Below are positions 40,071 to 44,679 of a stretch of 54,439 nt of DNA, in pieces. Numbering within the stretch: the stretch's first letter is position 1; each line of letters opens with the position of its first letter. The stretch lies in contig AJFK01000263.1 of NCBI GenBank assembly GCA_000467715.1, positions 1 to 54,439 on the forward strand, read 5' to 3'. A model generated the notes under the pieces. That model was not told the DNA's origin. It was given only the letters and a program-made list of their open reading frames with translations, and ran no database searches. Origin of the DNA: Hysterium pulicare CBS 123377 (Eukaryota; Ascomycota; Dothideomycetes; Hysteriales; Hysteriaceae). The position numbers and the translations under genes are program-made.

Positions 40071-40999
40071 ACGAGTGAGGGGTTTGACGGGTATTTGGAG
40101 GATATGTTGGTAAGACAGTCCGTATGACATGGCTTGGTAGAAGGAGGGAAGCGGTTTGCGAAAGGCAAATCAATGGAGGTGCGAAAGTGGCGCTACTGAT
40201 TGTACAATTCACTCGGTCTTCGGCGGTTCTATAACTGGTCGAATCGACCAACTAACTTGGTAGGGCTTCAAGTGATAGATTCTTTTATAGGACTTTTCCT
40301 GTGATACTTCTGTCGTTTGCTTTAATCAATTCCATGTCTAGACGTGTTGTTCCTTGATTCATCTCATAGCCCTACTTTACCAATATTCCGGAATGAGTAA
40401 TTCCCTACCTTTCTCATGGCTATCAATTCAACCGTGCTCTCACACTCTATCACGCTCTTGACAAGTCATGGTTTGTTTTAGCTCTGAGCAGAACAGGAAG
40501 TCCTTCCATATTCAGATCAGCATGCCGCTTCTTCTGGTACAGACATGTTTCCATTCTGAGGCGTCTTAGGAGGTTGCATGAGGTACAGTATACAATACAT
40601 TGCAAATCGGCATAACTTTGCCCTTGAAAGGAGGCGGATTGACTTTACCCGTACTCATTGGAGTCCGACGCGAAGTCCCTTCGTGCCCTGGAAAAAACTC
40701 GACCACCAGTCAAGTAACGTACTGTTCAATCATCTCGACTGCTCCAACCTTGCTTGTCCGTCTATCTCACTCTCGACGAAGACTCCCACGTCTAATAAAC
40801 ACAACGGCCGGAGCATGTTGCAACACCTTCCATATTCCCGGCTGTGCTTGGTCCAGCGGGTCCAGCTTGGAATAAGTTGGGCGACATGTCGCGGACCTGA
40901 TGTGATGACAACAAGCACCGATACTTACTCGAGTTCGCCGTCCGTGCGTACGACTGCCTATCTCACGTGACTCCTTATGTCAGCTCTTCATTTCTATCC
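40071..40999. other. Intergenic, nothing recognised
   Basis: Carries the 3' region of the pyruvate carrier gene and about 700 bases of short overlapping frames without domains. Confidence 0.5.
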
Positions 41000-41002
41000 A
41001 CA

Positions 41003-41010
41003 TATATAAA
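41003..41010 (+). promoter_or_regulatory. TATA box
   Basis: TATATAAA followed by a C/T-rich stretch, typical of a strong fungal core promoter on the plus strand. Confidence 0.45.
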
Positions 41011-41050
41011 CCTCCCCCGTTACTTCCTTTCCACCGCTTTTCTTTTTCAA

Positions 41051-41074
41051 CACCACCACCACCACCACCACCAC
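41051..41074 (+). repeat. Microsatellite (CAC)8
   Basis: Eight perfect CAC triplets 40 bases downstream of the TATA box, within a pyrimidine-rich segment. Confidence 0.95.
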
Positions 41075-41294
41075 TTCTCTCTTCGATCTTCAACTTTTCA
41101 TTCTTGCCTCCTCTCACGGCCATGTCACACATGTTCGTTCGTTAGTACCTTATCTCACTGACGTGAGTAAGGGAAAGCAAACGAACCCGTGTCGGGAGGG
41201 TCCAAACATTTTGGCGGGACCCACCGATTGGGCGCGTTGGCTGGGGCCCCAATCTCAGTACCGGCGGCAAGTTTTGTTTCCCTTCTGTTCTTGT

Positions 41295-41366
41295 GGCTGA
41301 CGTGACATAGGCTTGATTCCCTTTCCCTACCTTTTGTTTTGGCTGGCTGACGTGTTACAGGCTTTT
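41295..41366 (+). repeat. 50-base direct repeat with acceptor-like sequence
   Basis: GGCTGACGTGACATAGGCTT at 41295 and GGCTGACGTGTTACAGGCTT at 41345 are imperfect copies exactly 50 bases apart. Each combines a fungal branch-site match (CTGAC) with an AG acceptor 10 to 12 bases later, and a CT-rich segment lies between them. Confidence 0.7.
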
Positions 41367-41381
41367 ACCAAGTCTCTTGGT

Positions 41382-41614
41382 CAGGTAAGTCGGTCAGTCC
41401 AGGTAAGTACAGGTAAGTACAGGTAAGTCGGGAAGTCCAGGTGGAGTCAGGTAAGTCAAGGTGGAGTCAGGTAAGTCAGGTAAGTCAGGTAAGTCAGGTA
41501 AGTCTAGGTAAGTTAGGTAAGTCCAGGTAAGTCTCAGTCAGGTAAGTCCTCTCCCTTCATCGCCAGGTAAGTCTCTTCTCATCATCACCAGGCAAGTCTC
41601 CTCATCAGGTAAGT
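41382..41614 (+). repeat. Array of consensus 5' splice-site motifs (CAGGTAAGT)
   Basis: Thirteen exact CAGGTAAGT motifs begin at 41382, 41400, 41410, 41420, 41448, 41468, 41477, 41486, 41495, 41524, 41539, 41564 and 41606. Two TAGGTAAGT variants are at 41505 and 41514 and one CAGGCAAGT at 41589. Four copies at 41468-41503 are directly abutting 9-mers; others are separated by 1 to 33 bases, and the last three have pyrimidine-rich lead-ins. CAGGTAAGT is the perfect complement of the U1 snRNA 5' end. It could be a plain minisatellite or have a splicing-related role. Confidence 0.95.
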
Positions 41615-41620
41615 CTTCTT

Positions 41621-42686
41621 TTCTGGTTCGCTTCTTCGGCTTGAGTGAGCTTCGTAGGGTCGGTCACTGTGCGTACGTAGTAACTTGAATCAAATGAGCC
41701 GTTATACAAATTCGATTGTGCCTTGCTCTTGCTCATGTCCGATGTAATGTGCCTTGCCTTGAATATTTAAAGTGATGAACTTATACTTCATTCTTGAATT
41801 GCCCTCACCTTTTCACGTTAAGCTCATGGTCGCAACCTAGGTCCAACCCGCAGTGCCCTTCGCATTACACTACTCGGGCTAACACGCACTCGTCTTTCAT
41901 TGAAGCGTACCAGCTATTCTAACACCTTGAGGAAGATATCACATTCATTTAGTACCCTTTGATCCCATCTCCGCCGTCGCTACTGGCGGGTTGCGGAGTT
42001 CAAGTGCCGAAGCCTGGCGTTCATCCCCAGCGAGCGCATTTCCGTAGAGACCCTCTGAGTATAGGTGATGCGAGCTTTGATGTAGCAGGTCAGACGTAGC
42101 GCCTATGAGCACAGTCAACGAGACTATCGTAGGTATCTCCACGTCAACTTAATTACAGCTTAGCAGTCTGGCCTATTGACGAACTAAAGCGACGTCTAGA
42201 GACCAAAGGCAACGTGTATTGTCTTCCTAGAACATTTCTGAATAGCCAGATATGCTCTTTCGTAGATAGATCTTGAACTCAGCCTCACTCAGCCGGACGC
42301 TCTGCAATCTCCTCCTTATGACCTTCACTTCATGGTACACTTGACATTCCATGCCGAATCTCATAAAGCTTTCTGTCTTCTCCGCTTGGCCATGAGTGTA
42401 TGCAGACTTTGATTCATAACGATTTATAAACATTACCTATGTCCGCTGACCCAACAATTACTTTTATTCCTTCAACTCCAGCATCAATACAAATGCTTTG
42501 GCAGAAAAGTAATATCCGCCTGCTTGACCTCATCAAAGGCGTGAAGGAAAATGAACACCAGCGCTATGCAATATCCAGCAAAAAAATGCACTATCCTACT
42601 CCGAACCCCCAGCGGAAACGCCCACAAGCACAAAGAGAATGCAATCAAGTAACGCATACCAGTCGGTATCGAATTTCCCACCCCTT
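41621..42686. other. Intergenic, no gene recognised
   Basis: Short frames only, between the motif array and the 3' end of the signal peptide peptidase gene. Confidence 0.5.
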
Positions 42687-44679
42687 TTAATTGGTCCTCA
42701 GTCTCTTTCCCGAGGGCTCACCATCCGTCTTCTGCCTCTCCAAAACCCGCCAATTCGCATCCGGTTTCTTGTTTTCATCCGCGGAACTGGAGGTATTCAC
42801 TTTCTCGCCATCTGGGAGGAGTTGCGGGGTGGAAGGAGGAGAAACTTGTTTTGCGACCGAGTGAGGTTTCTTGAGTTCCCAAGGTGCCTCGATTGAGAGG
42901 GAGAAGACTTCACGACCGGCCTTGCGCTCGACTAGCTCTTTTGTTTTCGGCTTTCCCTTCGATTCACCGCCAGGTGCATTTGCGGCATCTACATCTTCGG
43001 GGTCATCGGCTTTCTCGCCTCCGTCGCTCTTGATGTGACGTGCGAAGCTCTTCTCCATTTTATCTGCCTGTCGCTTTCGGCTCTCGGCGGAGAAGATACT
43101 TGATCTCCCTGTACTGGTTCCGTCTCCTTTTCCTTCCGTCTGACCCTCCTCTTCCTCATCGATTGCTTCTGTGAATGCCCACATAGCTTTCACTTCGCCA
43201 TGGACCAGAGCTGTGAGCCATATCGATCCTAGAACTCCGGGGACGAGATAGAGTAGAGCGGGTTGGGCGTGACCGAAGATCTGCATCACGCCAAGCGTTG
43301 CTAACATGCCCAGGATGTATCCGACTAGACTGGCGTTGAAATAGGTTTTCGGGAATGTGAATGGAGCCTCGGTGTTCGAGGACGGCGAGGACGAGAAAAG
43401 CGGGCGTCCGGTCAGGGAATGCGTCCAGAAATGATCACTCCATCTACCCGCCAAAGAAAAATATTTTGGTTTTATGACAGTGGTAGTCGGGTGTGATTCA
43501 TCGGCTTGGTCTGATGCCGGGACGTGGGTTTGCCTGCGAAGGTAGAAGAGGTAGAGGTCGAAACGGAGGGCAAGGCCAATCATGATGCCGGGAAGTACAA
43601 CGTCTCCTAGACCAAGCATGGCGAGTGATTGTAATGCGGAATCGGCTCCCGGGGCTGGTGGGCGTGGGAAGACGAGTTTGATTGGGACGTCGAGGGATTT
43701 GGCAACTGTGACCATCATTGGTCTATACAGCCTATGTTAGCATAGCTATCATTGTGTAGGGAGGAAGGTGGAAGTGAACTTACGTGAAGAAAACAAAGTA
43801 TATGTCGTAGAAGAACAGCGCGCCGAGAATCAAGCTCCCTGTCGCGAATGTTGTGGGTGACATGAGCTGTAGCGCTCCGTAAGAGAACCCAAAGCCCATC
43901 AGATTGGTCAAATACCAAGGCTTGCCGACGAAATTGAAGTAGGCTACGGCGCATAGAGCGGCGAGGAATCCAACAACACTATGGGGACCAATCTTCATTC
44001 TGGCAGCTATCACACGGTGGAGATAGACGCGGACAGTCCATTTGTTGCCCGGCATGGCGCGATCGGACCAGAGCATATCCCGCAAGCCTGCCGATAGGGG
44101 AATCCGGGACAGAATTCCTGGGAGAGGAGAATGAATGACCGCTCCATCCTTAGGAGCGGTTGAAATGGGGGTAGCTTTCTTCTCTCTTCCATGCACATGG
44201 TACAACTTCCCTCCCAATGCGTATCGTCTAGGGAACACGATCGAGTGCCCGATATCCAGCGCATCTGTAATCAGTCTCGTCACCGAGAAGATACCGAAGA
44301 CAGCGAAGTACCAATTCAAGACCTTGTTCAACAGCGCGGGGTCTTGAAGCCACTTTATCAGAAAATATAGCCCAGCTAATGTGGTGCCAGCCATGACTGG
44401 CATAAGGAGAGCATCTGTTGGTGATAGGCCCTCCATTCGCTGAGGCTCCTCCTCTTCCTCATCGTCGCTGGACTCATCATCTTCAACAGTGAGTTTTGTG
44501 CCTTTCTTCTCCGGTGTCGCTGCGGATGATGGCCGTGAGAGCGAAGCATGGGCGCCAGCATAGATGGGGAATAGAGCTGAGACAAGGAGGTGAGCATACG
44601 TGGGGAGCAGCGGTTGGACGAGGGCGAATTCGTAGGCGATACGGCCAAAGATTTGGGCCATGACGCCTGGTTCGGGCAT
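42687..44679 (-). CDS. Signal peptide peptidase (intramembrane aspartyl protease)
   Basis: Two exons: 43784-44679 and 42687-43722, with a 61-base intron (GTAAGT, GCTAAC branch, TATAG acceptor), giving 643 aa. It carries the presenilin/SPP signature: the catalytic YD in GALFFYDIYFVF (Tyr291-Asp292), the GxGD motif in MLGLGDVVLPG (Asp339), and the substrate-recognition PAL in QPALLYLVPG (about 453-455). Several hydrophobic helices surround these. SPPs cut type II membrane segments such as spent signal peptides in the ER membrane; in yeast Ypf1 acts in ERAD. There is an acidic insert near residues 66-80 (VEDDESSDDEEEEEP) and a long charged cytosolic tail of about 180 residues, longer than in animals but usual for filamentous fungi. 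Intact. Confidence 0.92.

Follow-up and report, generated by a model that had tools for sequence, protein, structure and literature searches.

A tandem array of 5′ splice site motifs downstream of a predicted structured RNA element in Hysterium pulicare

The window analysed here is one whole contig (C208; 54,439 nucleotides) of the 37.2 Mb, 596-contig genome assembly of Hysterium pulicare CBS 123377. It contains a tandem array of donor-like units lying downstream of a short element that recurs elsewhere in the genome. The reading that we tentatively favour, giving it a little under an even chance, is that a donor unit within a noncoding gene of this element family expanded as a minisatellite to give the array, whose units would be dead-end U1 sites. 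The features of the locus are as follows.

41003..41010, plus strand: TATA-box-like TATATAAA, a predicted promoter from the position of the motif
To about 41121, plus strand: C/T-rich leader following TATATAAA, a predicted start region
41163..41168, plus strand: donor-like GAC/GTGAGT (PWM score 3.67), a predicted alternative start of a 5′ intron
41193..41254, plus strand: structured element with helix P2 (GGGTCC with GGACCC) and possible helix P3 (GATTGGG with CCCAATC), from comparison and folding
41267..41310, plus strand: candidate 44-nt GC-AG intron, GCAAGT...CTGAC...CATAG, predicted from the sequence
41340..41360, plus strand: acceptor 2, GGCTGACGTGTTACAG, a near-duplicate 50 bases after the first
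41382..41614, plus strand: donor-motif array, 20 units, 13 of them exact CAGGTAAGT, with 15 sites scoring as donors
41595..41613, plus strand: AGTCTCCTCATCAGGTAAG, a stretch shared with the array on contig C291
One side of the array, plus strand: mitochondrial pyruvate carrier gene (Pfam MPC, E 1.2e-29)
Other side of the array, minus strand: signal peptide peptidase gene (Pfam Peptidase_A22B, E 1.8e-34 and 7e-19)
Contig C291, within L012:1347-1506, minus strand: weaker donor-like array

The initial annotation had reported thirteen exact copies of CAGGTAAGT and three one-base variants in 233 bases, and this count is correct; all lie on the plus strand, the variants being TAGGTAAGT (twice) and CAGGCAAGT (once). 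When one mismatch is allowed the window has 22 matches to CAGGTAAGT, six of them scattered outside the array, and none of 100 shuffled sequences reached that number. The layout of 20 units was drawn by eye, with unit positions located by script. Besides the three variants, the seven inexact units comprise CGGTCAGT, CGGGAAGT, CAGGTGGAGT and AAGGTGGAGT. Donor-breaking forms among them are CGGGAAGT and, twice, GGTGGAGT; both TAGGTAAGT units keep the whole donor core. Such donor-breaking units are present in the left part of the array.

The units are mostly 8-10 bp in length, with repeats of 15-25 bp at the right end. Minisatellites have units of roughly 9-60 bp, and the array is like them in being built of tandem direct units of this size that have acquired substitutions, small indels and varying spacers. 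It differs from them in that its unit is a consensus 5′ splice site and in standing beside a multi-copy structured element. A chance-expanded minisatellite, offered originally as the null model, explains the array well, both in its motif-breaking units and in view of the tandem CAGGTAAGT of prokaryote and viral DNA described below. Among the four right-hand units, 2 of 27 compared core positions differ, as do 12 of 32 spacer positions (Fisher p 0.012), although one of the core changes was counted twice and the homology of the spacers is uncertain. The smaller change of core than of spacer mildly favours constraint on these units. The RNA of the array would fold worse than shuffled sequence, 190 of 200 shuffles folding at least as well.

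The donor character of the unit was gauged against a local profile. This was fitted to candidate introns from 254 kb of sequence (42-95 nt, consistent with an open frame and having a CTRAY branch point), using 40 rows with a posterior above 0.8, in which some donors occur more than once. The introns found were 43-93 nt long; being selected for CTRAY and for length, the set is no gauge of other branch points or of longer introns. The local donor core is G/GTAAGT, the most frequent hexamer being GTAAGT (16 of 40 rows). CAGGTAAGT scores 6.3 and thus lies close to the upper quartile of the 40 rows (6.31), so that the array units are predicted to be strong donors. The CAG that precedes them is atypical; it is found before the donor in 2 of the 40 rows, and is not the local habit. 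The description of the units as donor motifs therefore holds for their strong match to the local donor profile but not for the CAG. The array has 15 donor-scoring sites in 250 bp, and the next best cluster on either strand of the 254 kb sample has five.

Perfect complementarity of the units to U1 is reckoned against the usual U1 5′ end rather than that of the organism's own U1. The Rfam U1 model (RF00003) gave two matches in the genome below its cut-off of 69.5 bits, at 43.7 and 43.4 bits. Intact ATACTTACCTG was absent from both, and a search for a split 5′ end near them with at most one mismatch returned nothing; ATACTTACCTG occurs 14 times genome-wide compared with 17 for the reversed control. 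These U1-like candidates, at C300:95304-95452 (L010/L032) and C250:31111-31249 (L009/L031), both have a CAUUGCAC loop and an Sm-like site AAUUUUUG, and neither has an intact AUACUUACCUG. The C300 candidate in L032 also has a TATA-like box. Its sequence CATACTC/GTAAGT...TTTTTCAG/ACCTCG may represent an intron close to the 5′ end of U1, an end that would then show two differences from the usual one.

Neither CTRAY nor YTRAY occurs in the 518 bases from 41361 to 41878. Since 127 of 1000 shuffles of this stretch also lack CTRAY, the absence is weak evidence when taken alone. Six weaker CTNAY sites lie within it, including CTCAT, CTCAC and CTTAT types, and that at 41823 has an AG ending at 41840. 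Just beyond, CTAAC occurs at 41879 and 41919, with the first counted AG 23 and 13 nt on respectively, in GAAG in both cases. Upstream of the array there are two acceptor-like sites, CTGAC followed by TAG ending at 41310, and CTGAC followed by CAG ending at 41360, each with 10 nt between the branch A and the AG. The segments that contain them, GGCTGACGTGACATAG and GGCTGACGTGTTACAG, are near-duplicates 50 bases apart (within 41290-41370), suggesting alternative 3′ splice sites. With two acceptors upstream and no CTRAY inside, the array follows acceptors and has no consensus acceptor of its own.

These signals bear on the proposal that the array is a recursive-splicing (ratchet) device, in which each CAG/GTAAGT would be an acceptor first and a donor next. 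The array is like recursive-splicing sites and stwintrons in that AG is joined directly to GTAAGT, with CAG in this position in 13 units. The last units are indeed pyrimidine-rich ahead of the CAG, as had been pointed out; in the 16 of 20 units measured, the pyrimidine fraction before CAG or TAG is 0.60 in the first, 0.28-0.52 in the next twelve and 0.60-0.68 in the last three, which also have a weak TTCAT or CTCAT ahead of them. However, recursive sites have a branch point and a polypyrimidine tract before each AG/GT, and this arrangement is not found here. Consensus branch points are lacking between the units, and the left-hand units, only 9-10 bases apart and mostly less than half pyrimidine upstream, are too close together for successive branch points. 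We regard the ratchet as highly improbable, the least credible of the explanations considered.

The genes for the mitochondrial pyruvate carrier and signal peptide peptidase converge on the array, with their coding ends about 2.6 kb apart, so neither gene starts there. No long open frame is found between these coding ends. The longest stop-to-stop stretches are 47 amino acids inside the array (minus strand) and 55 across its end (plus strand), and none of the 150-nt windows beginning at 41231, 41291, 41351, 41411 and 41471 is open in any frame. Because the frames across it are closed, a reading of the array as a protein repeat was dropped. A protein reading is possible for the structured element itself; windows over it are open, with scores of about zero, and the coding score barely separates known genes from intergenic DNA. 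The covariance models of Rfam 15 had no match across 40300-42700 at E up to 1, and no tRNA was found in the window. We note also an open frame of 83 codons at 42439-42687 (plus strand), with a coding score of about zero; its end coincides with that of the signal peptide peptidase frame on the opposite strand, so that it is antisense to the likely 3′ UTR of that gene.

The element is present in five copies at four loci, labelled A (C208, in the window), B (C291), C and D (both C250) and E (C497). A genome search with 40980-41810 gave one other match, in C291, of about 107 bases with 80% identity (E 2.1e-16). The two C250 copies were contained in a stretch of the donor sample that weakly matches the array; used as a DNA query, the stretch with both copies found only itself. 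The pattern GGAGGGYCN{5,16}GGNGGGRYYCA, built from these four copies, matches five places in the genome and none in the control, the copy in C497 being newly found. A looser pattern for the second hairpin has 13 matches compared with six for the control. Four of the 13 are known copies, and most of the others would be expected by chance. Letters were seen for eight of the 13, C497 being among the other five. One match, at C338:59962-59986, equals the C291 copy at 24 of 25 letters and is thus a probable sixth copy. Rfam had no match to the element in L012 (C291) and L034 (C250) at E up to 3, or in L030 and L053 at E up to 5. Fungal telomerase RNAs use spliceosomal 3′ cleavage, and a telomerase RNA reading of the locus was considered and set aside; no telomere-template-like stretch was apparent by eye, and the element is multi-copy.

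When four copies are folded singly, P2 (GGGYCC with GGRYYC) forms in all of them. P3 and a closing stem P1 appear in the lowest-energy folds of three, the exception being the window copy, in which P2 forms without P3 and P1 is poorly paired. The z-scores of folding are weak (-0.92, -0.89, -1.95 and -2.53). The arms of P3, chosen by eye, pair at 7/7, 7/7, 6/6, 7/7 and 6/6 positions in the five copies, with shuffle values of 0.044, 0.027, 0.072, 0.046 and 0.016; there are four clearly different arm sequences, A and B differing in one pair. P1 can be made out clearly in C and D and fairly well in B; in A it is broken, and in E, by eye, it requires a shifted register. With the structure fixed on four aligned copies, 91.4% of cells pair (reached by 9 of 500 shuffles) and four pairs change on both sides (22 of 500), but there is no excess of further pair types (409 of 500). 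When the structure is slid by one column the covariation score is as high, at 0.344 compared with 0.333, with 72.4% of cells paired. RNAalifold recovered P2 and P3 unprompted from the five copies with an unfavourable covariation term (+1.12), which we think arises partly from misalignment of C and D, where the 3′ arms seem to be one column off. From this modelling the two hairpins are likely, and a three-way junction is possible.

In all five copies a sequence G[TC]ANGT begins 11-15 bases after P3. From A to E these donor-like sites are GCAAGT, GTAGGT, GTAAGT, GTAAGT and GTACGT. At offsets 10-15 of random places in the sample the pattern is found at 0.99% (0.0099 per copy), although it was worded after the copies had been seen, and A may not be independent of B, nor C of D. 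Copies A, B and E have a CTRAY 41-42 bases beyond P3, where an intron of about 43-46 nt is possible from the sequence; in C and D CTRAY is absent from that position. The candidate introns have unusual ends: the donor is GC at C208 and a weak GTAGGT at C291, and the acceptor at C497 is AAG. None of them was accepted by a strict intron scan, which found no intron at any of these three loci. In C250 (L034:1-5500) it found three on the plus strand, or 0.55 per kb, where the sample mean is 0.16 per kb and 0.35 is expected from the same sequence shuffled.

The C291 copy of the element is also followed by an acceptor-like TTAG and then by an array, weaker than that of the window, with units of about 16 bases. 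The units begin GTAGGC, GTAGAC, GCATGC, GTAATT, GTAGGC, GTAAGC and GTAAGT; one scores strongly as a donor (7.05) and the others at 1.7 or less. Its sequence AGGCTCCTCATCATGTAAG agrees with AGTCTCCTCATCAGGTAAG of the window at 17 of 19 bases, a match equalled by 6 of 1000 dinucleotide shuffles. The helices of the element and the kinship of the C208 and C291 arrays are supported, short of proof. The second-densest donor cluster of the 254 kb sample is in C250, 1.0-1.3 kb upstream of the first element copy there. At C497 the element is present with no such array in the 1 kb read.

The C250 region (C250:10001-15500, which is L034:1-5500) is crowded with different tandem repeats, with periods from 9 to 103 bp, among them four copies of AGGTAAGAC at L034:4049-4083. 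It also contains a candidate HDV-like self-cleaving ribozyme at C250:11529-11610 (L034:1529-1610, plus strand). This scores 27.3 bits with the drz-agam-1 model (cut-off 37; E 0.058 when 13 kb were searched, 0.0013 for a stretch of 301 bases) and 20.7 bits with HDV-F-prausnitzii (cut-off 44). The 3′ part of the candidate recurs without mismatch at C497:4313-4333, about 190 bases before the element copy of that contig. A pattern made from these two copies has seven matches compared with four for the control, those free of mismatch being the two copies themselves. No Rfam ribozyme was found in the part of C497 read.

CAGGTAAGT occurs 276 times in the genome (151 forward and 125 reverse) compared with 338 for the reversed control word. 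As 13 of the 276 sit in 233 bases, the word is not enriched elsewhere. All eight pairs of CAGGTAAGT within 12 bases of each other are in the array (control, one). Three GTAAGT with gaps of up to 25 occur 17 times, 12 of them in the array (control, 29); the other five are in a GTAA run (two, C42), an 11-bp repeat (one, C145) and a 24-bp repeat (two, C300). Three GGTAAG occur 13 times, nine of them in the array (control, 17), with two others in the AGGTAAGAC repeat, one more in C250 and one in C145. This search for other GTAAGT arrays, which the initial annotation had proposed, thus found no second array of comparable size in the genome under three exact patterns, which could miss arrays that are degenerate. 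Nor is the repeat scattered at random, as had been suggested for a functionless minisatellite; it is unique, and lies beside an element family with donor-like sites. Three tandem copies of CAGGTAAGT are also found in nine stretches of a prokaryote collection (257 billion bases) and in six viral contigs, while two control words in tandem gave one viral stretch each. Such arrays therefore seem to arise without a spliceosome, which makes the motif weaker as evidence of function, and the array alone is no proof of a role in splicing.

In the reading that we favour, the minisatellite unit would be, or descend from, a 5′ splice site. The host would be a small RNA gene, probably noncoding and served by a TATA-type promoter of its own, in which the array lies downstream of the two acceptor-like sites. 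It would be one of a family that numbers at least five copies, spread over four loci, each with an element of about 62 nt forming two hairpins and a donor-like site 11-15 bases on. The pair of donor and spacer, GYARGY-CTCCTCATCA-GTAAG, seems older than the split between the C208 and C291 loci, and slippage or unequal exchange would then have multiplied a 9-10-bp version at C208. If transcribed, the array RNA would have little structure and present U1 with 15 strong sites; since about 270 nt follow without a consensus branch point, U1 would bind but no splicing would ensue. As the mechanism we favour such dead-end U1 sites on a transcript, their number being most probably free of selection. Transcription, splicing and U1 binding at the array, and the order of events, we infer from the DNA. 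This reading is weakened by the odd intron ends (GC, GTAGGT and AAG), the empty strict scan and the lack of CTRAY in C and D, and also by the weak z-scores, the covariation of the slid structure and the unfavourable RNAalifold term.

The array might instead be a neutral minisatellite in untranscribed intergenic DNA, its match to donors coincidental and the neighbouring element unrelated. This would fit the lack of genome-wide enrichment of CAGGTAAGT, its tandem occurrence in prokaryotes and viruses, and the nine other tandem-repeat rows or part-rows in the window and the array region. It sits poorly with the array segment common to the C291 element copy, and with a TATA sequence, leader and two good acceptors placed just upstream; we think it unlikely, though it is the most credible of the alternatives. 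A functional U1 platform, on which repeated donors bind many U1 snRNPs for chromatin retention, suppression of early polyadenylation or marking of a noncoding transcript through stalled spliceosomes, is doubtful and ranks next. It would account for 15 strong, little-structured donors without a consensus branch point nearby, for right-hand cores that vary less than their spacers and for the runner-up donor cluster being at the element-bearing C250 locus, but not for the motif-breaking units, for C497 having the element without an array, or for an array at C291 with a single strong donor. An analogy might be drawn with the U1-dependent chromatin retention of lncRNAs in Arabidopsis, as described for MUSHER (PMC12354759). 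Equally doubtful, and placed just behind, is a more elaborate scheme, a new fungal noncoding RNA family in which a three-way-junction RNA set against a 5′ splice site controls donor use, and in which unpaired U1 sites could multiply into an array in the next exon and so retain the transcript in the nucleus or stall its splicing. The array, with many identical 9-mers lying some 370 bp downstream of a promoter-like site, could also be read as acting at the level of DNA, each unit being bound by a transcription factor or chromatin protein. We consider this very unlikely, as neither neighbouring gene starts at the locus, and we know of no factor for the CAGGTAAGT word.

A limited literature search found no published description of the array or the element, and the only structure of this kind beside a splice site in fungi known to us is the TPP riboswitch. 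In Cryptococcus, stalled spliceosomes trigger siRNA. The putative array RNA would be comparable in offering a good donor without efficient completion of splicing. U1-dependent chromatin retention of lncRNAs is reportedly also the subject of work by Yin et al. in 2020. By its predicted U1 sites the array RNA may be likened to MUSHER, a noncoding RNA that binds U1 snRNP (PMC12354759); unlike the sites of MUSHER as described there, those of the array are tandem and belong to a putative fungal RNA.

If the array is transcribed, it would provide a naturally occurring RNA in which many U1 sites lack an obvious acceptor, and so a direct test of the fate of orphan donors in a fungus. With a donor-like site after it in five of five copies, the element may represent an undescribed RNA family.
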